From IMG/VR virus record IMGVR_UViG_3300047585_000021, positions 1 to 24,572 of that record: a stretch of 24,572 bases of DNA. One strand, 5' to 3'. The position numbers and the translations under genes are program-made. The stretch comes from a virus. Each line of letters opens with the position of its first letter. The first letter of the stretch is position 1. The notes under the pieces are model-generated. The model was not told the DNA's origin. It made no database searches and saw only the letters and a list, made by a program, of their open reading frames with translations. This document shows positions 2,555 through 20,991 of the stretch, piece by piece.

Positions 2555-3736
2555 ATGACCACCGACACGCTGCCGCTGGCGGAGCTGGAGCTGAGCGCGG
2601 GCGATCTGCCTGCGCCCGGTTCCTGGCGGTCGGCGCTGTACCGGCCGGACGCGCCGGGCGCGGCGCTGGACGGCCAGCCGTGGGCGCGGTCGTGGGGTGC
2701 GTTCATGCATGCCATCACCGACCCGGACAACCCGGCGGCGCGCACCCTGATCGGCAACGTCATGTCGGAGCGGGTGCCCAGCGAGGGCGGGTTCCTGGTG
2801 CCGGAGTTCCTGCGGTCGCAGGTGCTGGCATACATGACGGCCCCGATCGTGCGCCCGCAGGCGATGGTGCTGCCGATGACGTCGGACCGGCTGGCGATCC
2901 CGGTGCTGGATAACCCGAGCCAGGCCAGCAGCGCGCAGGCGCTGGGCGGCATGACGTTCGCATGGGTTGAGCCGGGGGCGGTGATCCCGGGCTCGGCGGC
3001 CACGGCCCTGGCGCCGCAGTTCGGCCGCGCGGTCCTGGAGGCCCGCAAGGCCGCCGCGTACATGCAGGGCGTGCCGAACGAGCTGGTGGACGACGCGGCG
3101 GGCGCGTTCGGCGACTTCACCGCGCGGGTGATCGCGAAGGGTTATGCGTGGTTCGAGGATGACGCGTGGCTGAACGGCACCGGGGTGGGCCAGCCGCAGG
3201 GGCTGATCAACGCCGCGTGCGCGGTGGGCGTGGACCGCACCACGGCTAACGCGGTGACGTTCCTGGACGTCGTCGCGATGTTCAAGGCGCTGCACCCGGC
3301 GAGCAAGCAGTCCGGGCTGACGCCGGGCGTGACCTCGACGGCGTGGCTGATGTCGGCGACCGTGATGGACCAGATCCTGGAGATCTACTACAACCCGACG
3401 GGCAGTGAGGTTGTGCCGCCGTCGGGGTGGTTCTCAATGGGCGACGGGCGCGAGATCGGCCCGAACATGCTGGGCCTGCCCGCCGTGGTGACCGACCACC
3501 AGCCCGCCATTGGGGCGACGGGCGACATTGTGCTGGCCGACCTGGCGGAGTACGTGATCGGCGACCGGCTGGCGATGACTGTGGAGCGGTCGGCGAAGGG
3601 TGCCGGGTTCGTAACGGGCACCTCGAATTTCCGCATCAAGAGCCGGGTGGACGGCCGGTACTGGATCCAGAGCCCGACCACGACCGAGGCCGGCCAGACG
3701 GTGAGCCCGGTCGTGGTCCTGGACACCCACACCTAG
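2555..3736 (+). CDS. Second HK97-fold major capsid protein paralogue with short N-terminus
   Basis: The 393-residue product is clearly paralogous to the capsid protein at 566. Shared landmarks are MSER(V/I)PSEGGFLVPE (here residues 70-83), IVRPQAMVLPM, GVPNELV, YAWFEDDAWLNGTGVGQPQG (near residue 208), a GLPAVVTDHQP stretch and the ending KSRVDGRYWIQSPTT. The short helix before the core also matches (WGAFMHAIT here, FGKFMYAIF in the first copy). The N-terminal part before that helix is only about 45 residues against about 140, so most of the scaffold-like delta region is absent. The core is intact and in frame, with no sign of decay. There is no strong ribosome binding site, and the gene starts two bases after the preceding stop, which suggests translational coupling. 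It may form a minor capsomer (for example a vertex protein, as T4 gp24 does relative to gp23) or mixed hexamers; this is inference. Confidence 0.93.
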   Translation: MTTDTLPLAELELSAGDLPAPGSWRSALYRPDAPGAALDGQPWARSWGAFMHAITDPDNPAARTLIGNVMSERVPSEGGFLVPEFLRSQVLAYMTAPIVRPQAMVLPMTSDRLAIPVLDNPSQASSAQALGGMTFAWVEPGAVIPGSAATALAPQFGRAVLEARKAAAYMQGVPNELVDDAAGAFGDFTARVIAKGYAWFEDDAWLNGTGVGQPQGLINAACAVGVDRTTANAVTFLDVVAMFKALHPASKQSGLTPGVTSTAWLMSATVMDQILEIYYNPTGSEVVPPSGWFSMGDGREIGPNMLGLPAVVTDHQPAIGATGDIVLADLAEYVIGDRLAMTVERSAKGAGFVTGTSNFRIKSRVDGRYWIQSPTTTEAGQTVSPVVVLDTHT

Positions 3737-6438: not shown

Positions 6439-6795
6439 ATGGCGCGCAAGCACGAGCTGATCCCCGGCCAGGTCTTCGCCCGGGCGCTAGAGGCTGCCGG
6501 GATCATCGAGGACCTGGACGCGATCGAGCGCATCGTCATCGATGTGCGCGGTGGCGAGCCGGTCAGGCTGTATGTCCAGCGCCTCGGGGACGACCGGCTG
6601 CCGTCGATCGCGGCAATCCTCGCGGGTGCGTGCTGCGACATGCACAACCGCAGCTGCGAACCACCGGGCGACCTGTGCTGCAGCGCCTGCACCGAGGCGC
6701 GCCACGCGGGCTGGGTGGACGAGCGCGGAGCGCAGCGCTACGGCCACCCGATCGGCGAAGGGTGCTCGAACCCCGACCTGTCGGCGGTGACCTGA
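6439..6795 (+). CDS. Cys-rich small connector-region protein
   Basis: The 118-residue protein has an N-terminal helix-strand part (HELIPGQVFARALEAAGI, then DAIERIVIDVRGGEPVRLYV). A cluster of Cys and His follows (CCDMHNRSCEPPGDLCCSAC and later GHPIGEGCSN), probably a zinc-binding site. No function is recognised. ATG 6439 follows the adaptor stop by one base; a frame extension upstream to 6406 overlaps the adaptor and is unlikely. Its stop overlaps the next start as TGATG. Small proteins of this kind are frequent in actinophage connector regions. Confidence 0.8.
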   Translation: MARKHELIPGQVFARALEAAGIIEDLDAIERIVIDVRGGEPVRLYVQRLGDDRLPSIAAILAGACCDMHNRSCEPPGDLCCSACTEARHAGWVDERGAQRYGHPIGEGCSNPDLSAVT

Positions 6796-7199
6796 TGGCC
6801 AGCCGCGTGAAGGTGTCCGGGCCGATCTTCGACGGCGAGGCGATGAACGCCGTCCGCATGTTCCAGCGCGACACCATCAACGACCTCGCCGAGCAGGGCC
6901 AGCGGGTGATCCAGGAGCGCGCCAGGGCGATGAACAAGTCCGGCCGGGGCGGCACCGGCGCGGCGGCCGGCGGCGTGAAGCTGACCGGCGGCGACGAGAA
7001 GCGGATCATCTCCGGCGGCATCGAGAAGGGCGACTTCGCGTGGCCGTGGCTGGAGGGCAAGTCGAAGCGGAACCTCTCGACCGGCTTCAAGGGCTACGGG
7101 ACGTTCAAGAAGACCCGGCTGCTGATCGCCCGGGAGCTGCGCCCGGTCGCGCAGCGGAACCTGAGCCGGTACCTGCCCATGATGGGCGGTGAGTCGTGA
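6795..7199 (+). CDS. Neck / tail-completion protein (HK97 gp10-like position)
   Basis: A 134-residue basic protein with an N-terminal amphipathic helix (FQRDTINDLAEQGQRVIQER), a Gly-rich loop (SGRGGTGAAAGGV) and a C-terminal Lys/Arg-rich helix. The order adaptor, this protein, tail terminator, tail tube is that of HK97-gp10-type neck or tail-completion proteins, and the basic helical character fits. Sequence similarity to gp10 itself cannot be confirmed by eye. The ATG overlaps the preceding stop (TGATG, 6793-6797), and the stop overlaps the next GTG (GTGA, 7196-7199). Longer readings of this frame to the left overlap the preceding gene and were not chosen. Confidence 0.75.
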   Translation: MASRVKVSGPIFDGEAMNAVRMFQRDTINDLAEQGQRVIQERARAMNKSGRGGTGAAAGGVKLTGGDEKRIISGGIEKGDFAWPWLEGKSKRNLSTGFKGYGTFKKTRLLIARELRPVAQRNLSRYLPMMGGES

Positions 7200-7678
7200 G
7201 CGGCTTCGACGGGCCGGGCGTCCTGGCCGTCTACTCGGCGCTGACCAGCCACGCCAAGAGCCTGAACATCTTCCAGGACGTCAACCGGCACGAGTCGGAC
7301 AACCCGCCAGCGGGCGGCGCGTACTGCTCGTTCCTGCTCGGCGACGGCGAGGCGATCCGGGCGTCCGGGATGACCGCGACGTCGATCCGGCAGGAGTTCA
7401 CTGCCCGCATCTACGTGCTCCGCCAGCAGCGGCCCCTGGAGGCGATCGACCCGGCGATCCTGACCTCGACCATGCTCCTGGTGGCCGCCTACTCCGCCGA
7501 CTTCACGCTGGCCAGCGTCCCGGCCGGCCTGGTGCGGAACGTGGACCTGCTCGGCGCGACCGGCCAGGGGCTGAGCTGGCGGCCCGGCTACCTGGAGCAG
7601 GACGGCAGCACGTACCGGGTGATGGACGTCCTCGTTCCGCTGATCCTCAACGACGCGTTTGCGCAGGTGGCGACATGA
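7196..7678 (+). CDS. Tail terminator-like protein
   Basis: The 160-residue protein begins with GVLAVYSALTSHAKSLNIFQ, continues with beta segments (TSIRQEFTARIYVL) and ends with YRVMDVLVPLILNDAFAQVA. Length, alpha/beta character and position (immediately before the tail-tube genes) fit a tail terminator, the ring that caps the tube and joins it to the connector. Family membership rests mainly on synteny. It overlaps both neighbours by four bases (GTGA at the start, ATGA at the end), so translation is probably coupled through the connector-tail genes. Confidence 0.75.
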   Translation: MSGFDGPGVLAVYSALTSHAKSLNIFQDVNRHESDNPPAGGAYCSFLLGDGEAIRASGMTATSIRQEFTARIYVLRQQRPLEAIDPAILTSTMLLVAAYSADFTLASVPAGLVRNVDLLGATGQGLSWRPGYLEQDGSTYRVMDVLVPLILNDAFAQVAT

Positions 7679-9123
7679 GCGGGAGCACCACGAAGAGCAG
7701 TGGTCTCGGCGATGACCTGGTCGTGGCCGGTTACCACATCGGCGGCGACGTCCAGGACCTGAGCATCGCCAGCCCGCTCGGCGTGCTCGACGTCACCGAC
7801 ATCACCCAGTACGGCCACTCCCGCCTCGCCGGCCTGCGCAGTGCCTCCATGGACCTGGTCACGTTCCACGACCCGGCCGCGAATATGGCCCATGACGCAT
7901 TCAAGGGCCTGCCCACGGCCGACGTGATCATGACCTACCTGCGCGGGACGGCACTCGGGGGCGCGGCGGCGAGCCTGAACGCCAAGCAGGTCGGCTACGA
8001 CCCGACCAGGAGCAACGACGGCAGCCTGACATTCAAGGTGCAGGGCCAGTCGAACTCCTACAATGCCGCCGCCCTGGACTGGGCCGTCCAGCTCACCCCC
8101 GGAGTGACCAGCGTTGCCAACCTGCTGACCGGCCAGAACGCGGGTTTCGAGGGCGGCGTCGGCAACTGGGTGCAGGCGGGCGGCTGCACGGTCGCCGACT
8201 CGTCGGCGCAGGCCCATTCGGGCAGCGATTCGCTGGCATTGACCTGTACGACGGCTGGCACGATGGGTGCCGCGTCGTGCATCGCCTCCAGCATCACCAC
8301 GCAGGGGCTCGCGGTCACGGCGGGCCAGCTCTACACCGTCCAGATGTACCTGCGGGCGGCCACGGCGGCCCGCACCAGCACGCCGCAGATCGCGTTCTAC
8401 AGCCCCGCGGGGACCCTGCTGTCCACGGTCAGCGGCAGCGCGGTCGCGGACGTGACGACCGGCTGGACGCTGCTGACGGTCGAGGCCGCGATCGCCCCGG
8501 CGACGGCGGTCTATGCCCGGGTGCTGATCCAGGTCGCCAGCGCGGCCCTGACTGAGGTGCATTACCTCGACGACGTGTCCGTGTTCCCGGCGCCGGGCAG
8601 TGTGAACAACGGCCAGGCGTACGGCTTCGGCGCGCAGGCCTATCTGCACGTGCCCGCGTTCACCGGCACCGATGTGACCGTGCAGCTGCAGCATGCCCCG
8701 GATGGCGAGACCTGGACGGAACTGGCCGCCTTCAGTCAGGTCACCGGCTCCGTGCCGCTGGCGCAGCGGCTGTGCCTGTCCGGGCTGTTCACCTGCCCCG
8801 TGGCGTCGCCCGGGGTGTTCACCGCGCCGGGCCCGGTCTTCCTGGCCAACCAGGCGGTGCAGCTGTCCGCGCTGCCCGGCCAGAGCCTGCCCGGCGGGTT
8901 CGCCGCGGCGACGACGTACTACGTGATCTCGCCGGCCGGCAGCACGTTCGGGCTGGCCGCGACGCCGTCCGGTTCGCCGATCAACGCCACCACGGCCGGC
9001 TCTGGGGTCGTGGGCGCGGTGGTGGACCAGTACCTGCAGGCCGCGCTCACGACGGTAGGCGGCTTCACCGCCCTGTCGTACGAGGTCAACGTGAATGTGA
9101 ATCCGGTGCAAGTCGTCTTCTAG
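7675..9123 (+). CDS. Tail-tube-like protein with two inserted domains
   Basis: The 482-residue protein has the frame of an actinophage tail-tube protein: residues 1-~148 (STKSSGLGDDLVVAGYHIGG ... LRSASMDLVTFHDPAANMAH ... VIMTYLRGTALGG ... DGSLTFKVQGQSNSYN) and the pieces FGAQAYLHVPAFTGTDVTVQ and FTALSYEVNVNVNPVQVVF. Two segments interrupt this frame. Residues ~149-309 (NAGFEGGVGNWVQAGGCTVA ... LDDVSVFPAPG) look like a carbohydrate-binding jelly-roll of the CBM4/9 type. Residues ~372-447 (ending SLPGGFAAATTYYVISP ... INATTAGSG) are a module also present in two tail-tip proteins further on. ATG 7675 overlaps the previous stop. Whether it forms the tube itself or a minor ring is open, because a second tube-like protein follows at 9608. 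Confidence 0.8.
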   Translation: MSGSTTKSSGLGDDLVVAGYHIGGDVQDLSIASPLGVLDVTDITQYGHSRLAGLRSASMDLVTFHDPAANMAHDAFKGLPTADVIMTYLRGTALGGAAASLNAKQVGYDPTRSNDGSLTFKVQGQSNSYNAAALDWAVQLTPGVTSVANLLTGQNAGFEGGVGNWVQAGGCTVADSSAQAHSGSDSLALTCTTAGTMGAASCIASSITTQGLAVTAGQLYTVQMYLRAATAARTSTPQIAFYSPAGTLLSTVSGSAVADVTTGWTLLTVEAAIAPATAVYARVLIQVASAALTEVHYLDDVSVFPAPGSVNNGQAYGFGAQAYLHVPAFTGTDVTVQLQHAPDGETWTELAAFSQVTGSVPLAQRLCLSGLFTCPVASPGVFTAPGPVFLANQAVQLSALPGQSLPGGFAAATTYYVISPAGSTFGLAATPSGSPINATTAGSGVVGAVVDQYLQAALTTVGGFTALSYEVNVNVNPVQVVF

Positions 9124-11384: not shown

Positions 11385-11512
11385 GGGCGGAGCTGGTGCT
11401 GGGCCTGGCCGAAATGTGGCACTCCCGCCCATCCCAGGTGCTGAAGGAAGACGCGGAGGTGCTGCGCGACCTGGAGGTCAGGCGGCTCGGAACGCCGAGG
11501 GGAGGTGAGTAA
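10875..11512 (+). CDS. Tail assembly chaperone, -1 frameshift fusion (gpGT-like)
   Basis: Slippage by -1 at 11237-11243 joins the first ~123 residues of the zero frame to 89 residues of the overlapping frame, for ~212 residues in total. The added part reads ARRLREWRDATG, then a Gly/Asp-rich linker and a helical end, WELVRAELVLGLAEMWHSRP, SQVLKEDAEVLRDLEVRRL. That ending resembles the T domain of gpGT proteins, which contacts the tape measure. The T part has no start codon with a ribosome binding site of its own. The fusion stop overlaps the tape measure ATG as TAATG, as expected for a fusion that is the functional upstream partner. The joined coordinates are 10875-11243 then 11243-11512. Confidence 0.8.
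11237..11243 (+). other. Programmed -1 ribosomal frameshift site CCCTTTG
   Basis: The heptamer C CCT TTG is in the zero frame in the canonical X XXY YYZ register: tRNAs on CCT and TTG can re-pair with CCC and TTT. A possible stimulatory hairpin, TGGCG-CGA-CGCCA, lies at 11261-11273, 17 bases downstream (a little further than usual). No other in-register slippery heptamer was found between the end of the conserved G domain and the zero-frame stop. Confidence 0.72.
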
Positions 11513-14190
11513 TGGCGGCGAACGTCGTCGAGATCGTCATCACCAGCACAAACAAAGCGGGCGCTGGCATCGAGGAGTCCGCGGACCAGGCCGAGGAGGC
11601 CGCCGCGGCGTGGGACGCCTACGCGGACGCGGCCACCCGGGCGGCCGAGGCGAACACGGAGCTGGAGGCGGCGGCGGCCCGGCTGGCCGGGGTGCAGGCC
11701 GACGAGGGTGCCAGCGGCGAGGAGCTGGCCGCCGTGCAGAACGAGTACGCGGCGGCGCTGGACCGGGCCAGCACGGCGGCCACGGCGAGCCTGGACGCCC
11801 AGATGCGGCTGGCCGCGGCCGAGCGTGATAGCGCCGCGGCGGCGAAGGAGTCCAGCGACGCCCAGGAGGAGAGTGCCGCCAAGACCGACGAGTCCAGCGA
11901 GAGTGCGGGCATGTTCGCGGGCGCCTGGGGGAAGGCGAAGCTGGCACTCCTCGGCGTCGCCGGGGCGATGGTCTACGGCACGGTCAAGGCGGCCGGTTTC
12001 CAGAGTGTCATGAACACGCTGAACACGCAGGCGGGCGTGTCGCGCGGCCAGCTCGCGTCGCTCGGCAACGGGGTGCTGGCGCTGGCCGGGCAGGTCGGCG
12101 ACAGCCCGGACTCCCTGGCGCAGGCGCTCTACCACGTCGAGTCGTCGTTCGCCAGCGTCGGCATCACCGGCCCGAAGGCCCTCAACCTGCTGAAGACGGC
12201 GGCCGAGGGTGCGGCGGTCGGTCACGCCGACCTGGTCGACGTCACGAACGCGCTGGACGCGACGATCGTCGCCGGGGTGCCGGGGATCAAGTCCTACAGC
12301 GGCGCGATGGGTGCCCTTAACGCCATCGTCGGCTCCGGCGACATGACCATGCAGGATCTGGCCAGCGCGATGTCCACCGGCGTGATGGCGGTCGCGAAGT
12401 CGTTCGGCCAGAACATTTACCAGGTCGGGGCGGCCCTGGCCGTCTTCGGTGACAACAACATCCGGGGGGCCCACGCGGCGACGGAGCTGCGGATGGCCTG
12501 GCAGGCGATGCAGGCGCCGCTGACCACCGCGGGCCCGGTGCTGAAGAGCATCGGCCTGACGATGACCGAGCTGGGCCACACGATGACCCACGAGGGCATG
12601 TCGTCGGCGATCGAGCAGTTCATCCAGCACCTGCAGGCGAGCAAGGTCCCGGCCAGCGACTGGGGCCAGTACATGACTGAGATCTTCGGCAAGAAGGCCG
12701 GCGTCGGCATCGGGATCCTGACCGACCAGATCGACCGGCTCAAGAGCAAGTTCCCCGACCTCGAGCGCGGCGCATCCGGCTTCGGCTCGGCGTGGGCGCA
12801 CACGCAGCAGACGGTCGCGCAGCAGTGGGCCGACCTGAAGTCCAGCCTGGACGCCCTGGTCACCAAGATGGGCGTCGGCCTGCTGCCGATCGCCATGAAG
12901 GCCGTCCGCGGGCTGACCGACTTCGCCAACGCGCTCGAGCATGGGAAGGGCCCGGCGATCGCGGTCGCCGCCATCATCGGCGGCGCGCTGGCGGGGATCG
13001 CCCTCAAAAAGCTCCAGGATGGGCTCTCGACCGCAGCCGAGGGGTTCGAGAATCTCTGGAAGGGCGGCGAGAAGCTCGCGGGCTGGGCCGGCCAGATGAT
13101 CGGCAAGCTGACCGGCGCCGGGGACGCCGCGGCGGACGCGGCCACCGAGACCGAGGGCCTGGCCGCCGCACAGGATGCCCAGGCCGAGTCGGCGGAAGGG
13201 GCAGCGGCGGCGCAGGAAACCCTTGACGTTGCCGAGGACGCCAACCCGATCGGCGCGATCATCATGCTGCTGGTGGCCCTGGCCGCCGGGATCTATGAGG
13301 TCGTGAGGCACTGGAAGGACTTCGAGCACTGGGGATCCGAGGCCCTCCATGGGGTCGAGACCGCGGCCCGCGACGTGTGGTCCTGGATCAAGGCGAACTG
13401 GCCGATGCTGGCCGGGATCCTGCTAGCGCCATTTACCGGCGGTATTTCGCTGGCAATCGCCCTGATCGTGAAATTCCACAAGGATATCGAGCGCGAATTC
13501 GATGATATCCGCCACGACGTGGCGTCAGATCTGGACGGAATGCGCCACGATGTCGCCGCCGCTTTTGACGATTTTATTAGCACCGAGGAATCGGGGCTGG
13601 ATATTATCCGCCACGATTTCGCCTCGAAATTCGACCAAATCCGGCACGACATCGCCTCCTGGGGCGATGACGTCGTCCACTGGTTTGAGCAGCTCCCCGG
13701 CCGGATCGTGAACGGTGCGGCGGCGCTGCCGGGGATGCTTTTCCATCTCGGGGAGAACGCGATCTCTGGGCTGCTGCACGGCCTGGAATCGATGGTCGGC
13801 GGCCTGATCGGTGATGCGGAGAATTGGGGTCACGACATCGCCAACGCCATTGGCGGCGCTTTCGGTATCCATTTCAGCGAGCCGTCTGAGGCCACGAAGA
13901 TGATCGCGGCCGGGCAGCGCGCCGGCCTGGGCTTCGCCAAGGGGCTGGCGTCCACGGAGGGCGCCTTGCGCGGCGCCGCGGCGACCGCGTCCCGTGCCGC
14001 GATGTTCGGCGGGGCTGGCGGCGGCTACGGCGGCGGCGGTGCGGGCGGCCAGATGGAGGTCGTCCTGCGCTGGGAAGGGGCCGAATCGGGGCTGATCAGG
14101 GAGCTGTTCCAGTCGCTGAAGGCGCAGGTCCGGGTCGTCGGCGGCGGTGGCACCAACAGCGCCCAGCGGGCGTGGGGACAGACGAGCTAG
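11512..14190 (+). CDS. Tail tape measure protein
   Basis: At 892 residues this protein should set the tail length, about 130 nm at 0.15 nm per residue. Residues ~1-135 are an Ala/Glu/Asp-rich coiled-coil region. Residues ~150-480 match the TP901-type tape measure core (VMNTLNTQAGVSRGQLASLG, GIKSYSGAMGALNAIVGSG, IRGAHAATELRMAWQAM). Hydrophobic segments lie near residues 143-160, 481-500, 580-597 and 631-652, as in tape measures that insert into the membrane during DNA ejection. Residues 663-728 form six 11-residue repeats of the (F/L)DxIRHDxAS type. A Gly-rich stretch and a VVLRWEGAESG segment close the protein. The ATG overlaps the chaperone fusion stop. DNA at ~13430-13700 uses more A/T third positions than the rest, which hints at mosaic origin. 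Confidence 0.95.
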   Translation: MAANVVEIVITSTNKAGAGIEESADQAEEAAAAWDAYADAATRAAEANTELEAAAARLAGVQADEGASGEELAAVQNEYAAALDRASTAATASLDAQMRLAAAERDSAAAAKESSDAQEESAAKTDESSESAGMFAGAWGKAKLALLGVAGAMVYGTVKAAGFQSVMNTLNTQAGVSRGQLASLGNGVLALAGQVGDSPDSLAQALYHVESSFASVGITGPKALNLLKTAAEGAAVGHADLVDVTNALDATIVAGVPGIKSYSGAMGALNAIVGSGDMTMQDLASAMSTGVMAVAKSFGQNIYQVGAALAVFGDNNIRGAHAATELRMAWQAMQAPLTTAGPVLKSIGLTMTELGHTMTHEGMSSAIEQFIQHLQASKVPASDWGQYMTEIFGKKAGVGIGILTDQIDRLKSKFPDLERGASGFGSAWAHTQQTVAQQWADLKSSLDALVTKMGVGLLPIAMKAVRGLTDFANALEHGKGPAIAVAAIIGGALAGIALKKLQDGLSTAAEGFENLWKGGEKLAGWAGQMIGKLTGAGDAAADAATETEGLAAAQDAQAESAEGAAAAQETLDVAEDANPIGAIIMLLVALAAGIYEVVRHWKDFEHWGSEALHGVETAARDVWSWIKANWPMLAGILLAPFTGGISLAIALIVKFHKDIEREFDDIRHDVASDLDGMRHDVAAAFDDFISTEESGLDIIRHDFASKFDQIRHDIASWGDDVVHWFEQLPGRIVNGAAALPGMLFHLGENAISGLLHGLESMVGGLIGDAENWGHDIANAIGGAFGIHFSEPSEATKMIAAGQRAGLGFAKGLASTEGALRGAAATASRAAMFGGAGGGYGGGGAGGQMEVVLRWEGAESGLIRELFQSLKAQVRVVGGGGTNSAQRAWGQTS
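13498..13695 (+). repeat. Six 11-residue repeats within the tape measure gene
   Basis: Consecutive units read FDDIRHDVASD, LDGMRHDVAAA, FDDFISTEESG, LDIIRHDFASK, FDQIRHDIASW, GDDVVHWFEQL. The hydrophobic first position and the IRHD core are kept in four of six units; the third and sixth are divergent. Eleven-residue repeats with regularly spaced aromatic or large hydrophobic residues are known in tape measure proteins. Confidence 0.75.
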
Positions 14191-14199
14191 GGAGGGCGC

Positions 14200-15666
14200 A
14201 TGGCGAAGATCACCACGGCGAACGGGCCGTCCGGGCCAACGGTGCCGGGGCCGGTCGGCGCGGCCGGGTCCCTTCAGACCGAAGATGGCGTGTGGCGGCC
14301 GGCCAGCTCGCTGATTCCCGGCGGCGGCGTCTCATCGGCGTTCGGCCGCAGCGGGGCTGTTGTGGCGCAGAGCGGCGACTACACGGCCGCGCAGGTGGGT
14401 GCCGACCCGGCGGGCACCGCGGTGGCTGTGGTCGCAGCGTCGGCGACGTCGATCCTGACGCTGGTCACCCCGCCGGTCACCTTCAGCCAGAGCCCGTACG
14501 CGGCGGCGGCGGACGCGATAGTGCCGGTGGACACCACGAGCGGGACTGTGGTGGTCAAGCTGCCCTCTGGCCCGGCCGCGGGGACGCTGGTGGTGGCCAA
14601 GATGGTCACTCTCGGCGGCAGCAACGAGGTGACGATCGAGACGCAGGGCCCCGACGTCTTCAACAAGACCGGCGGCGGCACGAGCCTGAACCTGACCCTG
14701 CAGGCGCAGGGCGTGATCCTGCAGTACGGCGGCGTGGGCACCGCTGGCGCGGGTGCGGGCATCTGGACGGACATCTCTGATGACCTGCCGCTGACCCAGC
14801 TCAATGCCCTCTACGACGCGGCGGGCGCGGCGGCCACCGCCCAGTCCACCGCGGAAACGTACGCACTGAACCTCCAGCCGACGTCGGGCTCGCCGCTGGC
14901 CACCACGAAAGGCGGCACTGGCGGCAGCTATGCGAGCTTCGCCGCGGCACTCGCCGCCGCCGGGATCACGCCCCCGGCGCCCTCGGCCAACTTCAAGCCC
15001 GCCAACCCCACACCCACGTCCACCACGTCAATGGTGATGATGGGCCTCGGCCAGGCTGGCAGCGGCCAGGCGCTCGTCTACACCCCCACCGGCACCGGCA
15101 AGGTCAAGGTGGACATCCGCGCCTCGGTGTCGAGTGAGGGCGCGACCGCGATCGTGACCGTCGGCCCCCGCTACGGCACCGGCACCGCACCGGTGCCCGC
15201 AGTGACCGCGACCGTCTCCAGTGGCACCGGCAGCGCGGCCGCGTTCACGGCCACCAACTCGTTCACCGCGGGCCAGCAGGTCTACGTGGGCGGCACCACG
15301 CAGCCCACGAACTTCGTCCAGGGGACGGCGTATTTCGTCGCCGCCAGCCCGGCGCCGACCTCGTCGGTGTTCTACCTGTCCGCCACCAATGGCGGCTCTG
15401 CGATCGCCTACTCCAGTGCCGGCGCGGCGGTCACTGTCGGCGCGGTTGTGACCGGCACCCGGTTCGGCGTCCCGGCCGACGATGCGGTCCGCGCGTCCAA
15501 CCCGGGCACCGCGGGCCAGTTCCTCACCCCGTGGTCAGCGAACGACGACCTGGCCCTGGCGCCGAACACCACCTACTGGTTTGACCTAGCGCTGGAGACG
15601 ACCACGGCCGCGGACACGGCCCAGGCCGGCAACATCAGCGCAACCTTCGCCGAGCAAGTCTCCTAG
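14200..15666 (+). CDS. Tail fibre-like / minor tail protein
   Basis: The 488-residue Ala/Gly/Thr-rich beta protein contains the phage-fibre motif VSSAFGRSGAVVAQSGDYTA (about residues 44-63), a second fibre-type beta segment (VPVDTTSGTVVVKLPSGPAA), the linker SPLATTKGGTGGSYASFA and a C-terminal beta domain (GSGQALVYTPTGTGKVKVDI ... PNTTYWFDLALETTTAAD). Residues ~334-417 hold a module (AGQQVYVGG ... GTAYFVAASPAPTSSVFYLS ... AIAYSSAGA) related to those in the proteins at 7675 and 15675. GGGAGGG just after the tape measure stop is its ribosome binding site. Its place directly behind the tape measure, ahead of the main tail-tip protein, is slightly unusual. A role in surface binding is inferred from the motifs. 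Confidence 0.8.
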   Translation: MAKITTANGPSGPTVPGPVGAAGSLQTEDGVWRPASSLIPGGGVSSAFGRSGAVVAQSGDYTAAQVGADPAGTAVAVVAASATSILTLVTPPVTFSQSPYAAAADAIVPVDTTSGTVVVKLPSGPAAGTLVVAKMVTLGGSNEVTIETQGPDVFNKTGGGTSLNLTLQAQGVILQYGGVGTAGAGAGIWTDISDDLPLTQLNALYDAAGAAATAQSTAETYALNLQPTSGSPLATTKGGTGGSYASFAAALAAAGITPPAPSANFKPANPTPTSTTSMVMMGLGQAGSGQALVYTPTGTGKVKVDIRASVSSEGATAIVTVGPRYGTGTAPVPAVTATVSSGTGSAAAFTATNSFTAGQQVYVGGTTQPTNFVQGTAYFVAASPAPTSSVFYLSATNGGSAIAYSSAGAAVTVGAVVTGTRFGVPADDAVRASNPGTAGQFLTPWSANDDLALAPNTTYWFDLALETTTAADTAQAGNISATFAEQVS

Positions 15667-15674
15667 GGGCACCC

Positions 15675-16313
15675 ATGGCTGACGGCTTTTCCACGTATAT
15701 GGCCGACCTGATGCTCGGCTGGCTGGCGGGCGCCGCCCCGCCGGCTCCGCCGGCCGTCTATGTGCAGGGCCACACCGGGCCACCTGGTTCGGCGGGCACG
15801 TCGAACGTGTCCAGCGTGACCACGCGCAAGGCGCTAACCTTCGGCAGCCCGTCCGCTGGCTCGGTGGCGATCACGAACACGCCGCAGTGGCTGAACTGGG
15901 CCGGGACTTCCGGGGAGGTGTGGACCGATGTCTCGCTGTGGGATTCCCTGACGGGCGGCAACTTCCTCGACTCGATCGAGCTGGCCGGCACCTGGTACGA
16001 GTTCACCTGCACCCAGGCCAGCCCCGGCATCTTCACCTGCCCGGGCCTGTCACCCGCGAACGGGCAGACGGTCTACCTGCTCGCCGCCGAAGGGTCGTCG
16101 CTGCCCGGCGGATTCTCAGCCGCGACCGCCTACTACATCGTGAGCGCGTCGGGTAACACGTTCGAGCTGTCGGCCACGCTGGGCGGATCGGGCATCAACG
16201 CCACGTCGGCCGGTGGCGGCCTGGTGGCCGCGACGGCCCCGACCAACCCGATCAACACGGGCAACAACCTGCAGCTCTCCAGCCTGACGGCCGCCTTCCC
16301 GGTCGCCGCCTAA
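15675..16313 (+). CDS. Tail-tip / fibre-associated protein with inserted beta module
   Basis: The 212-residue protein begins with DGFSTYMADLMLGWLAG, then APPAVYVQGHTGPPGSAGTS, RKALTFGSPSAGSVAITNTP, GEVWTDVSLWDSLTGGNFLD and ends NNLQLSSLTAAFPVAA. This is the layout of a widespread small phage tail-associated family ('Y-x-x-x-L-L-x-x-x-L-G ... V-Y-V-x-L-H-T ... P-G ... F ... H-x-x-L-W-D-A ... G-G-N-F-L'). Between GGNFLDSIEL and NNLQLSSL the family sequence is split by residues ~110-185 (FTCTQASPGIFTCPG ... SLPGGFSAATAYYIVSA ... GSGINATSAGGG), the module also found in the tube-like protein at 7675. AGGGG precedes the ATG. The function is probably structural at the tail tip. Confidence 0.8.
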   Translation: MADGFSTYMADLMLGWLAGAAPPAPPAVYVQGHTGPPGSAGTSNVSSVTTRKALTFGSPSAGSVAITNTPQWLNWAGTSGEVWTDVSLWDSLTGGNFLDSIELAGTWYEFTCTQASPGIFTCPGLSPANGQTVYLLAAEGSSLPGGFSAATAYYIVSASGNTFELSATLGGSGINATSAGGGLVAATAPTNPINTGNNLQLSSLTAAFPVAA

Positions 16314-16317
16314 TCCC

Positions 16318-19300
16318 ATGACCGCGCCCTACCTCGCCGGATCGGCCCTCGCCGCGACCGGGGGCACCAGCCTCACGGTCACGGCGGGCTCGAACGCGGG
16401 CGCGGGCGCGGCCAGCGGCGTGACGGCCGGTGACACCGCGGTCGTGATCGCCGCGACCGGCGGCACCACGATCATCGGCGTCACCGACAGCAACAGCGAG
16501 ACGTTCACCGCCGGGATAGCCGAGGCCACCGCGCCCGGCTCGGCGATCTACTACTGCCCCGGATCGGCCGGCCTCGCGTCAGGCACCGGCACGGCCACCA
16601 TCACCTACAGCGGCGGCGCTGGCGAGAAGAACGGCATACTGCTCGGTATCCCGGCCGCCATGGGCATCACCGGCGAGGACTCCGGCGGGTCGGCCGCGGG
16701 CGCGGGCACCAGCTCCGGCGGCGCGTTCAGCCTGAATAGCGGCACGCTCGCGACCCAGAACGAGATTCTGATCGGCACGGTCACCTACGGCAACGGCGGG
16801 GGCGCGTCGCCGGTCTGGAGTTCGGGGTGGACGCCGATCGGGGTGGCGTTCCATGCCACGAGCCAGCAGTGGACGGCGGTCGCCTACGCCGAGCCGGGGG
16901 CCAGCACGTCACCGGTCACCCTCGGCATCTCAGGCCTGGCCGGGACGCCCATCTACAGCGCCTGCATCCTGGCGTTCAAGACCACGGTGAGCTTCAGCGC
17001 CGCCCAGCAGGTGGTCCCGGCCCAGTCGGCCGCACTCAAGCAGGGCGTCCACGCCGCGGCTGCGCAGCTGGTGATCCCGGCGCAGTCGGCCAGCACCACC
17101 CAGGGCATCCACGCCAGCGCGGCCCAGCTGGTGGTGCCCGTCCAGTCGGCCGTGATGGTGGTGACCGAGCCGCCGCCCGTGGTGCCGCCGTTCCCGGCGT
17201 CGCCGATCGGCCTGACCGCCCAGATCCTGCTGCCGTCGCTCGGCATGACCGGCACTCCGGGGGTCACCGGCGCGACCGTCAACTGGGCCACCTACGGCCT
17301 GTCGGCCAGCCAGGTCATGACGGCGGCGGCGACCTACGACGGCTACACCAGCACCACCCTGGCCGCATCCGGGCAGCGGTACTACCTCACCGAGGGCACC
17401 CTGCCCGCCACCCTGCCGACGGCGCTGGCCAGACTGGTCGCGGCGGGCGTGTTCGTGCAGGTCTGCCTCAAGCCCACCCGCCAGTCGGTGCTCACCGGCG
17501 GCTCCACGCTGGCCGCCCAGCAGTCGGCGCTCGCGGCGTTCATCGCCGCCATGCAGGCCGCCTACGTGACCGCGGGGTTCAGTGCCAGCAACTTCAGCGT
17601 GACGCTGTGGACAGAAATGAACGACCACGGCACGCAGCCGTTCCCTTACGCGGGCACCGGCGGCACGCTCACCTTCGCGGCCTACTGGGCGGCATTCGCG
17701 CCGGTCATCCTGGCCGCGGGCGCGCTGGCCAACTACAACCCGTCCTGCAACACCGCCAGTGCGCTCAACGGCGCGGAATGGTTCAGCCTGCTCAGCCCGC
17801 TGCCCTCACAGTTCATCGTCGACCTGTACTCCAACGCGTGGCACGACGGCGGCTTCATCGACCAGCCCTGCGGGGGTGCCTCCTTCAGCTATCAGGAGCT
17901 GGCCGACGGCGCGGGCATCCCGCTCGGCATCGGCGAGTACGGCCTGGCCGCGGGCAACCCGCCCGGCTACATCCCCAACTCCACGGTGTGGGGCGAGTTC
18001 ATCGGCGACTACCTGATCCCGCTGTTCAGCAACCGGCTGGTCACCGGCCGCAGCAACGCCGAAATCCTGCACTTCGGCACCGGCGGGGTCCTGGGCTCGC
18101 CGGTCTACAATTCGATCCAGTCCGCCACCGACTTCAAGACCGGGCTCACCACCGGCGGCAGCGGCCAGATCATTCCCGGCGTCTTCCAGATGACCGCCCT
18201 CTCCCAGCCGGTCTCCTCCTCCTCGCCGCAGTGGCAGGACATCTCCGGCTACGTCTACCAGCGGGCCGGCACGAGCCCGGCGGTCACCATCACCCGCGGC
18301 CGGCCGAACGAGTCCGCGCAGGCGACGCCGAGCTCGGCGTCGTTCCAGGTGAACAACCAGTCCGGCAACTTCACGGCGGAGAACCCGCTCGGCGCCTGGT
18401 ACGGGCAGATCGGGCGCAACACGCCGGTCAGGTTCTCCGTGCCAGCGCAGAACCCGTCGCTGCGGATGGAGGACGACAGCTCGAGCTATGCGAGCACGCC
18501 GAGCTCGACGTCGCTGAACGTGAGCGGCGGCATCGACGTGCGGATCGACATGACCCCCTCGACCTATGCGGGATGCGACCTGGCCGGGAAGTGGCAGCTC
18601 GGCTCCGGCGGCACCCAGTCGTCGTGGATCCTGCAGCTGAACGCCGACGGCACGGTGACGTTCTACTGGTCGAGCACCGGCACCAACTTCTTTTCGGTGC
18701 AGTCCACCCAGCCGCTGCCGCGCTTCGGCCGGATCATGGTCCGCGCCGTGCTCACCCTCGCGACCGGCACCGTGACGTTCTGGACGGCACCGCAGATGGG
18801 CGGCACGCAGACACAGCTCGGCGCGGCAGCCACCGGCACCGGCGGGGCCAGCACGTCGGTCTACGCCGGCACCACGCAGATCCAGGTCGGCGGGCTGAGC
18901 GGCGCGGCGAGCCTGAACGGCACCATCCACGAGTTCCAGCTCCTCAACGGCGGCGGCACACTGGTGGCCGACCCGGTGTTCTCCGCCCAGATCGAGGGCG
19001 CGGCGTCGTTCACCGACGTCCAGGGGAACGTCTGGACGCTGAATGGCACCGCCGGGATCAGCGAGCGGTCCTACCGCTACTTCGGCGAGATGTCGTCGAG
19101 CCCGAAGGCCACCGACCCGACGCTGACCGACGTCTACGTGCCGGTGACCTCGGGTGGCATCCTGCGGCGGCTGCAGCAGGGCAACGCGCCGGAGTACTCG
19201 CCGATGCGGCGGGCCGAGACCGCGCAGGCCGGGGACCTGTTCCCGGTCGCGTACTACCCGTGCGAGGACCTGCAGGGCTCGACGTCGATCGGCTCGGCGA

Positions 19301-20991
19301 TCGGCGGCCCGATCATGACGGTCGCGGGCGGCACTGGCGACGGGTCGGTGACGACGACCGGGCCGGCGTTCTCCAGCGACTCCACGTTCGCGTGCTCGGC
19401 CGCACTGCCGGTCCTGAACGGCTCGTCGTGGCACGCCCAGATCCCGGCCTATGAGAGCAACGGCAGCATCATCACCCGCTTCCTGCTCGACGTGCAGGAC
19501 ACGCCGCCGAACGAGGCGCGGATCATGCGGGTGATCACGAACGGCACGCTGCAGGAGCTGTCGCTGTACTACACCACCGGCGGCGGCATGGGCCTGGCCG
19601 GCTACGACGCCGGCGGGACCGTGTTCGACAGCGGCCCGATCATCTTCAACGTGGACGGCGAGCCAGTGTGGGTCACCATGGAGCTGCGCCCCGGATCTGG
19701 CTCGACGGTGAACTGGTCGGTCGAGACGCTGCAGCCGGGCTCACTGACGGGCCTGAGTGACGCCGGCACCTTCACTGGCACGATCGGCAACGCGACCGAC
19801 GTCTATGTGAACCCGCAGCAGCTGCTCCAGCAGGTCGTCATCGGGCACGTCTCGGTGCAGTCGGCCTGGCAGTCCCTGTTCGGCCTGTACTGGCCGCTGG
19901 ACGCCTGGACCGGCGAGACCGCGGGGGCCCGCTTCCTGCGCCTGTGTGGCGAGAACGGCATCCCGGCCCGCATCTACGGGTTCCCCGCCAGCACCGCACT
20001 GATGGGCGCGCAGCCGGTGGATACGCTGCCGGACCTGCTGCAGCAGTGCGAGGACGCCGACCGGGGCATGATCTACGAGCCCCGGCAGGCGTACGCGCTC
20101 GGCTACCGGCCGTTGCACGCCCTGGTGAACCAGTCGGCGGCGGTGACGCTGGACTGGTCGCAGGGGATGATCGCGGCGGACGGCTGGCAGCCGCCGACTG
20201 ACGACGATCAGTACACGATCAACGACGTCACCGCCACCCGCGATTCGGGCGGCTCGTCGGGCTCCAGTGGCGCGACCTACCGGACCTACCTCGACGACGG
20301 GTCGGCGATGAGCGTCAGCCCGCCGCCGGTGGGCGCGGGCGACTACGCCACCTCGGTGAGCGTGAACGTGCAGGACGACGGCCAGCTGCCCGACGTCGCC
20401 GGGTGGATGGTGCACACCGGCACCGTGGACGAGGCGCGCTGGCCCGCGATCACCGTGGACCTGGCCCGCACCGAGGTCGCCAGCCTCTTCTACGTGCTCC
20501 AGGACCTGAACATCGGCGACCGGCTCGACCAGGTGAACGTGCCCACCTGGGTGACGTGGGACGACGTGCGCCAGCTGGCGGCCGGGGTGACCGAGGGCAT
20601 CGGCGGCTACTTCTGGAAGGTCGCCTGGAACGGGATCCCGGAGACGCCGTACGAGACTGGCGTGTTCGACGACCCGGTGTACGGCCGGTGCGACACCGAC
20701 GGGTCGGCGCTGTATGGCGGCATCAGCGAGACCGCCACCACGTTCCAGGTGCAGGCCACGGCCAGCGGCGCGCCGCTGTGGACGACGAACCCGGCCGACT
20801 TCCCGTTCGACATCCAGGTCAAGCCGCAGGGCGCGCCGGGCCGGGGTGAGCGGATCACGGTGACCGGCATCAGCGGGACGAGCTCGCCGCAGACATTCAC
20901 GGTCACCCGGTCAGTGAACGGGGTGGTCATGGCCCACAACGCGGGCGACCAGGTCAGCTTGTTCTTCACTCCGGTCTATGCGATCAGTTAG
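16318..20991 (+). CDS. Giant minor tail / tail-tip protein with N-terminal glycosidase-like domain
   Basis: This 1557-residue protein is modular. Residues 1-~225 form a beta-sandwich-like domain. Residues 227-286 are three 20-residue repeats (unit SAAQQVVPAQSAALKQGVHA). Residues ~290-620 look like a TIM-barrel glycosidase: FVQVCLKPTRQ, VTLWTEMNDHG with Glu433, SQFIVDLYSNAWHDGG, and PLGIGEYGLAAG with Glu540, the places expected for acid/base and nucleophile in clan GH-A. From Trp639 (WQDISGYVYQRAG ... ITRGRPNESAQATPSSASFQ ... YGQIGRNTPVRFSV) the usual actinophage minor tail protein begins, with concanavalin-like domains at ~713-915 and ~976-1180 and a tail-hub-like part (FLRLCGENGIPARIYGF; LLQQCEDADRGMIYE) to the end. 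It follows the previous stop by four bases. Substrate and activity are unknown; Thr instead of Asn precedes Glu433. Confidence 0.88.
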   Translation: MTAPYLAGSALAATGGTSLTVTAGSNAGAGAASGVTAGDTAVVIAATGGTTIIGVTDSNSETFTAGIAEATAPGSAIYYCPGSAGLASGTGTATITYSGGAGEKNGILLGIPAAMGITGEDSGGSAAGAGTSSGGAFSLNSGTLATQNEILIGTVTYGNGGGASPVWSSGWTPIGVAFHATSQQWTAVAYAEPGASTSPVTLGISGLAGTPIYSACILAFKTTVSFSAAQQVVPAQSAALKQGVHAAAAQLVIPAQSASTTQGIHASAAQLVVPVQSAVMVVTEPPPVVPPFPASPIGLTAQILLPSLGMTGTPGVTGATVNWATYGLSASQVMTAAATYDGYTSTTLAASGQRYYLTEGTLPATLPTALARLVAAGVFVQVCLKPTRQSVLTGGSTLAAQQSALAAFIAAMQAAYVTAGFSASNFSVTLWTEMNDHGTQPFPYAGTGGTLTFAAYWAAFAPVILAAGALANYNPSCNTASALNGAEWFSLLSPLPSQFIVDLYSNAWHDGGFIDQPCGGASFSYQELADGAGIPLGIGEYGLAAGNPPGYIPNSTVWGEFIGDYLIPLFSNRLVTGRSNAEILHFGTGGVLGSPVYNSIQSATDFKTGLTTGGSGQIIPGVFQMTALSQPVSSSSPQWQDISGYVYQRAGTSPAVTITRGRPNESAQATPSSASFQVNNQSGNFTAENPLGAWYGQIGRNTPVRFSVPAQNPSLRMEDDSSSYASTPSSTSLNVSGGIDVRIDMTPSTYAGCDLAGKWQLGSGGTQSSWILQLNADGTVTFYWSSTGTNFFSVQSTQPLPRFGRIMVRAVLTLATGTVTFWTAPQMGGTQTQLGAAATGTGGASTSVYAGTTQIQVGGLSGAASLNGTIHEFQLLNGGGTLVADPVFSAQIEGAASFTDVQGNVWTLNGTAGISERSYRYFGEMSSSPKATDPTLTDVYVPVTSGGILRRLQQGNAPEYSPMRRAETAQAGDLFPVAYYPCEDLQGSTSIGSAIGGPIMTVAGGTGDGSVTTTGPAFSSDSTFACSAALPVLNGSSWHAQIPAYESNGSIITRFLLDVQDTPPNEARIMRVITNGTLQELSLYYTTGGGMGLAGYDAGGTVFDSGPIIFNVDGEPVWVTMELRPGSGSTVNWSVETLQPGSLTGLSDAGTFTGTIGNATDVYVNPQQLLQQVVIGHVSVQSAWQSLFGLYWPLDAWTGETAGARFLRLCGENGIPARIYGFPASTALMGAQPVDTLPDLLQQCEDADRGMIYEPRQAYALGYRPLHALVNQSAAVTLDWSQGMIAADGWQPPTDDDQYTINDVTATRDSGGSSGSSGATYRTYLDDGSAMSVSPPPVGAGDYATSVSVNVQDDGQLPDVAGWMVHTGTVDEARWPAITVDLARTEVASLFYVLQDLNIGDRLDQVNVPTWVTWDDVRQLAAGVTEGIGGYFWKVAWNGIPETPYETGVFDDPVYGRCDTDGSALYGGISETATTFQVQATASGAPLWTTNPADFPFDIQVKPQGAPGRGERITVTGISGTSSPQTFTVTRSVNGVVMAHNAGDQVSLFFTPVYAIS
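16996..17175 (+). repeat. Three 20-residue repeats linking two domains of the giant tail protein
   Basis: Three units of 60 bp encode SAAQQVVPAQSAALKQGVHA, AAAQLVIPAQSASTTQGIHA and SAAQLVVPVQSAVMVVTEPP. The first twelve positions (x-A-A-Q-x-V-(V/I)-P-(A/V)-Q-S-A) are nearly invariant. They connect the N-terminal beta domain to the glycosidase-like domain, then run into a Pro-rich hinge. Confidence 0.85.

Follow-up and report, generated by a model that had tools for sequence, protein, structure and literature searches.

Decorated tail hubs and related systems

Extra domains are found in the tail-tip proteins of Gram-positive phages, where they are located within the gp27-like domain of "evolved" Tal proteins or in the galectin loops of "evolved" Dit proteins (PMC7291167). 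As far as the available part of that source describes them, these decorations are mostly binding modules. The same part of the source mentions a glycosidase domain on the Tal protein of Listeria phage PSA, and it describes gp27/Tal-type hubs as trimers. Hydrolases are well known among phage depolymerases, which are generally elongated homotrimers that protrude from the virion (available part of PMC5380687), and glycoside hydrolase genes have been found in soil viruses (available part of PMC11222151).

The window, i.e. the whole stretch of DNA that was analyzed, is a virus record of 24,572 bases. Positions 16318–20991 on the plus strand encode a single open reading frame of 1557 amino acids, which is composed of an N-terminal piece, linker repeats, a probable first hub strand, a predicted GH-A-like barrel and the rest of a tail hub. 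The closest described proteins are the phrog_5313 proteins of Streptomyces phages, e.g. phiSASD1 gp38, Vondra gp18, Dubu gp16 and Chymera gp18. These are homologous to the window protein from W639 to near its end, with approximately 30%–35% identity, however they start about 18 residues before the Trp and contain neither the barrel nor the long N-terminal piece.

The inserts of evolved Tal and Dit proteins in the available part of PMC7291167 are carbohydrate-binding modules, whereas the window insert is predicted to be barrel-shaped and enzyme-like. In Listeria phage PSA a glycosidase is also present on the hub, but at the end of a post-structural extension and not in the first hairpin (same part of the source). 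The polysaccharide depolymerases are virion-borne and glycan-directed, as is proposed for the window barrel, however the latter is a predicted GH-A-like barrel within a hub and not an elongated protruding homotrimer (available part of PMC5380687). In the open-licence literature searched, no hub was found to be described with an enzyme-like barrel inside its first hairpin. The decorated hub is thus a known arrangement, and the new aspect is that the insert resembles an enzyme, whereas the usual ones are binding modules. The protein is probably the tail-tip hub of an actinobacterial phage, decorated with an enzyme-like barrel that would cut host surface glycan.

The 1557 amino acid open reading frame and its tail part

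Third-position GC of the open reading frame is 0.92–0.99 per 100-codon block, with the exception of the last block (0.73), which extends beyond the stop codon. Because this value is even and high, the open reading frame looks coding along its full length. The length of 1557 aa and the positions of W639, of Glu433 (in LWTEMND, from residue 430) and of Glu540 (in GIGEYG, from residue 537), as given in the preliminary description of this DNA, are exact. All parts of this protein that are described below are on the plus strand.

A separate piece of about 290 residues precedes the barrel. Residues 1–225 (positions 16318–16992) appear beta-rich by eye when the sequence is read and are without a family match; a search with residues 1–234 gave no match in Pfam or PHROGs, and residues 1–290 display chance-level similarity only to the N-terminal pieces of six relatives. 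Residues 228–287 (positions 16999–17178) consist of three tandem 20-residue (60-nt) repeats that probably form a linker; the later copies share 73% and 62% identity with the first one.

At the C-terminal side, residues 617–638 (positions 18166–18231) would connect the barrel to the hub, with boundaries that we infer, and residues 639–1557 (positions 18232–20988) form the remaining part of the gp27/Tal-type hub. Jelly rolls of the LamG/pentraxin type are predicted in it by analogy with the model of a relative. The phrog_5313 profile matches residues 638–1548 with an E-value of 7.1e-176. Thirty-three phage records, 32 from Streptomyces and one from Thermobifida, are similar to the tail part. Since the relatives are Streptomyces phage proteins, the host of the phage is probably an actinobacterium.

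The nearest hub relative (L012) is 49% identical in the window part, and its model has a pLDDT of 86.4. This model stands in for the window protein and displays the hub fold: the Z-scores are 20.1 for the hub of Agrobacterium phage Milano, 19.6 for a Streptomyces contractile injection system, 18.7 for VgrG1, 18.5 for Mu gp44 and 17.4 for T4 gp27, and the hub matches span about 290–320 residues. The jelly-roll regions of the model match LamG or pentraxin folds. The hub alignment (A6) has 41 sequences, i.e. the window and 40 of the 43 listed, with L051, L091 and L005 left out. The tail part is, on the basis of this model, a gp27/Tal/VgrG-type hub. The term "minor tail protein" that was previously applied to it leaves the type unspecified, and the Z-scores of 17–20 give the more precise designation. 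The homologous tail part is present from W639. Since homologous hubs are trimers, about three copies of the barrel would be expected per tail tip.

Predicted fold and catalytic residues of the barrel

Residues 308–616 (positions 17239–18165) are predicted to form a GH-A-like (beta/alpha)8 barrel that resembles glycanases. The model was made with AlphaFold2 from a four-sequence alignment. It has a mean pLDDT of 60.6 and a pTM of 0.69, the mean pLDDT of the five models is 38–61, and 105 of the 309 residues are at pLDDT below 50, with beta-1 not modeled. From beta-2 to beta-8 the strands and helices alternate in the model, as in the (beta/alpha)8 fold of clan GH-A.

Glu433 (positions 17614–17616), the predicted acid/base, is directly after beta-4, two residues past the strand (model strand 119–124, Glu at 126). 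Glu540 (positions 17935–17937), the predicted nucleophile, is inside beta-7 (model strand 229–235, Glu at 233). The two residues are thus placed in the predicted model at the strands whose ends carry the catalytic Glu residues in clan GH-A, and both are identical in the four barrel sequences. A TIM barrel with Glu433 and Glu540 arranged as in clan GH-A had been proposed before, and the model and the structural matches agree with this proposal.

A Foldseek search against the PDB shows nine matches at E-values up to 0.001, of which eight are titled as glycanases or heparanase. The best is a beta-1,4-galactanase (E-value = 2.7e-5). The nine top matches have low TM-scores (0.31–0.43, normalized by query length), and TIM barrels of unrelated proteins are found at lower ranks. 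The ninth match, 6zpl_C, has the title of a transporter complex. The barrel is aligned with it over the same chain range as with lichenase, thus this match is probably to a fusion partner. Among the best 50 VIA-align matches listed (Z 12.0–13.7 over 207–245 residues), all except one are glycan-cutting enzymes by title, i.e. xylanases, galactanases, lichenases and others. The best structural matches of the barrel are enzymes that we take to be GH5/10/26/39/53-type glycanases. When viral models are searched, the top match is a protein without a name from Ralstonia phage RSB3 (E-value = 4.8e-5).

In clan GH-A the acid/base Glu is commonly, although not universally, preceded by Asn (His in GH26). 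The residue before Glu433 is neither of these; it is Thr in the window protein and in relative L105, and Gln in relatives L098 and L093. The barrel is therefore termed GH-A-like and is not assigned to a GH family. Sequence profile searches of Pfam, NCBIfam and the PDB also did not place it in a named GH family. The barrel thus shares with the clan GH-A glycanases the predicted fold and the Glu residues at beta-4 and beta-7, and differs from them by the absent profile match and by Thr or Gln before the first Glu. The earlier interpretation of the domain as an enzyme is in part upheld, by the predicted resemblance to GH-A-like glycanases.

Relatives of the barrel

Only three relatives of the barrel were found, with pairwise E-values to the window sequence of 3e-55 (L098), 4e-37 (L105) and 7e-4 (L093). 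There are 26 alignment columns that are identical in all four sequences and two of these are Glu, i.e. Glu433 and Glu540. The alignment of three relatives from elsewhere and the identity of both Glu residues in all four argue that the barrel pattern is beyond chance.

All three relatives are in phage contigs, in the tail-tip region. In L098 the barrel is a gene of its own, two genes downstream of a phrog_5313 hub piece. In L105 it is also a separate gene, which contains two Pfam He_PIG stretches and is found three genes after a Sipho_Gp37 protein. In L093 the barrel is within one hub-type open reading frame, which shows weak matches to phrog_5313. Downstream of the barrel relative, the L098 contig also encodes an Rv2525c-like glycoside hydrolase-like domain (PF08924) at positions 6534–7367.

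The beta-7 motif, searched as a DNA pattern, was present in six contigs, of which two contain relatives (L093 and L095; L095 and L098 are one contig). L094 has a beta-7-like motif, but its domain is clearly different and it was rejected as a relative; the remaining three contigs do not have the barrel domain. The beta-4 motif, searched in the same way, was present in seven contigs, where L095 is the sole relative and the other six are unrelated. Profile scans added L105 alone, and a profile search that covered 50 of about 95 loci, with L093, L098 and L105 among the 50, detected the barrel in these three only.

The barrel sequence by itself gave no match in the viral_contigs set, in phages at E-values up to 10, or in genome_contigs, the last also with a two-sequence alignment. 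Plasmids gave one chance-level match (E-value = 7), and the sequence search of the PDB gave just a glucuronan lyase at an E-value of 1.5. L093 and L095 as queries had no match in phages. The barrel showed no match in Pfam or PHROG at E-values up to 10, the PDB profile search none at E-values up to 10, and the barrel region none in NCBIfam at E-values up to 1. The tail part, when first scanned on its own, gave no match either, and a second copy of the whole 1557 aa protein was not found in the contigs searched. The barrel family thus escapes sequence profiles, and such enzymes can hide under annotations such as minor tail protein or hypothetical protein.

Proposed function

Placement on the virion, catalysis and a role in adsorption are what we infer for the barrel. 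About three barrels would ring the tail tip, facing outwards from the turn of the first hairpin of the hub. These may hydrolyze glycan on the host surface with the pair of Glu residues, as enzymes of clan GH-A do. With glycan hydrolysis at the tip, the phage could get through a layer of polysaccharide, or trim its receptor, ahead of hub opening, and the N-terminal piece together with the jelly rolls of the hub may hold the tip to the glycan. A more specific interpretation, which we offer tentatively, is that the barrel represents an unnamed GH-A-like family, so far found only in phage tail-tip modules, that would act as a functional enzyme from an insertion site within the first hairpin of a hub trimer. 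Its three active sites would lie round the tube exit and would cut, not merely bind, glycan.

The barrel could also be a glycosidase-like domain without catalytic activity whose role is glycan binding alone, as for the modules on decorated hubs and distal tail proteins elsewhere, although we regard this as unlikely. The presence of Thr or Gln at the position of the GH-A Asn before the acid/base would agree with loss of activity, and the hub already has jelly rolls that resemble LamG or pentraxin. The prevalence of binding modules among the Dit and Tal decorations in the available part of PMC7291167 is in agreement as well. However Glu433 and Glu540 are the sole Glu residues identical in all four sequences, where the most distant one shares 24% identity with the window sequence, and binding by itself would not call for a pair of Glu residues at the expected catalytic positions. 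These points favor an enzyme that cuts glycan.

The place of cutting may also be different. The domain could be a wall-degrading tail lysin that cuts peptidoglycan or a wall polymer at DNA entry, and not an outer glycan. Peptidoglycan-cutting domains are described on the Tal extensions of several siphophages (available part of PMC7291167). The structural matches listed, however, are to glycanases and not to lysozymes or amidases, which says nothing on the substrate; a tail lysin appears rather improbable compared with an enzyme for the host surface glycan.

Predicted position of the barrel in the hub

The relatives of the tail part open with a segment of the type M-x-FPxTPLxxxVELxLxG, which is immediately N-terminal to the Trp, and their usual start is about 18 residues before the Trp that is equivalent to W639. 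The preliminary description placed the normal start of such tail proteins at W639 itself. This agrees with the similarity to the phage records, which begins at residue 639 in 23 of the 33 (at 652–653 in the other ten), but not with the usual start of the proteins. The segment represents strand 1 of the hub. As we read the alignment, 88 of 90 relatives have it right in front of the Trp position; in L038 and L051 it is aligned elsewhere.

When the first 638 residues of the window protein are scanned with a matrix of 44 strand-1 segments from relatives, the highest score is at residue 292 (FPASPIGLTAQILLPSL, 11.3 bits), and the next site scores -3.8. The score at residue 292 is equaled or exceeded in 7 of 5000 shuffles. 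The segment is short, and a score of this height is also reached in 10 of 2318 other open reading frames with a length of 200 aa or more. This strand-1-like segment, residues 292–309 (FPASPIGLTAQILLPSLG, positions 17191–17244), ends where the barrel starts. In the L012 model, a turn of two residues lies between strands 10–15 and 18–21, at the equivalent point. Residues 292–309 thus resemble the hub's own first strand. Because this segment adjoins the barrel, and because a turn is present at the matching point of the L012 model, the most likely location of the barrel is within the first beta-hairpin of the hub, at its turn. The earlier statement that it is fused in front of the tail protein is probably not correct in this form, since the matrix match at 292–309 places it most likely after the first strand.

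The order in L093 is different by our reading: the barrel is followed by a proline-rich linker, then by what may be strand 1, and a loop of greater length leads to SWVDV. Insertion is therefore not the sole arrangement, as the L093 barrel precedes both linker and hub. The gap scan of the relatives is blind to an insert at profile columns 18/19, where the piece of 18 columns is below the reporting length.

A plain N-terminal fusion would have joined an upstream tail gene in frame at the old start of the hub, Met625 (position 18190), and the likeness at residues 292–309 would then be due to chance. When the sequence is cut at Met625 this residue is aligned with the initial Met of the relatives, added N-terminal domains are found on other hubs (L012, L047, L053 and L076), and the L093 barrel lies ahead of its hub. 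However, residues 292–309 had been left out of the Met625 alignment, and residue 292 is the clear best matrix site, rarely matched in shuffles and exactly at the barrel edge. A Shine-Dalgarno-like stretch is absent before 18190, though it is also absent before 16318. Met625 as the old start was dropped once the first strands of the relatives were read and the like segment was found at 292–309, and we consider a plain fusion rather improbable beside an insertion in the first hairpin. That the contig joins two unrelated phages by faulty assembly is very improbable, for although the window is a fragment of a virus contig and the whole protein lacks a second copy in the contigs searched, all 1557 codons are in one uninterrupted frame whose third-position GC is even, and L093 independently links the barrel family to a hub-type open reading frame.

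Other domains on related hubs

Close relatives of the hub have other domains in place of the barrel. The L012 hub gene (L012:6288–10772) displays a Pfam Beta_helix domain (E-value = 2.9e-9) ahead of the hub, on the side where the window protein has its N-terminal piece. A hub of the same family in L013 (L013:2388–5897) has a Spherulin4 domain (PF12138, E-value = 7.9e-29) near its C-terminal end. The gene that precedes the L013 hub has a beta-helix-like appearance and no Pfam family match. Gaps of more than 60 extra residues are present in 33 of the 90 relatives, 32 of them by our count near the C-terminal end; the one in L076 looks spurious. The Beta_helix and Spherulin4 domains and the C-terminal additions show that the hub family takes up varied domains. 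Binding and cutting by actinobacteriophages at the host surface are poorly known, and the window protein and its relatives point to a constant hub with varied domains of glycan-active appearance.

Neighboring genes

A tape measure protein gene is located upstream at positions 11512–14190 on the plus strand. Between it and the hub gene are two fibre-like genes on the same strand, at 14200–15666 and at 15675–16313, the latter with a Pfam Gp80 fibre match. In ten annotated phage records the hub gene is directly after the gene at the tape-measure position; phiSASD1, Vondra, Dubu and Chymera are among the phages with this order.

The window contains two HK97-type major capsid genes, at positions 566–2089 and 2555–3736, both with a Pfam Phage_capsid match. 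The proteins are 34% identical over 403 residues, and the pair represents, by this comparison, a divergent duplication of the capsid gene. A module of about 50–110 residues is common to a tail-tube-like protein (positions 7189–9123) and to the proteins of the two fibre-like genes, with identities of 50% over 109 aa and 40% over 57 aa. The tail-tube-like open reading frame also bears a Pfam CBM_4_9 domain.
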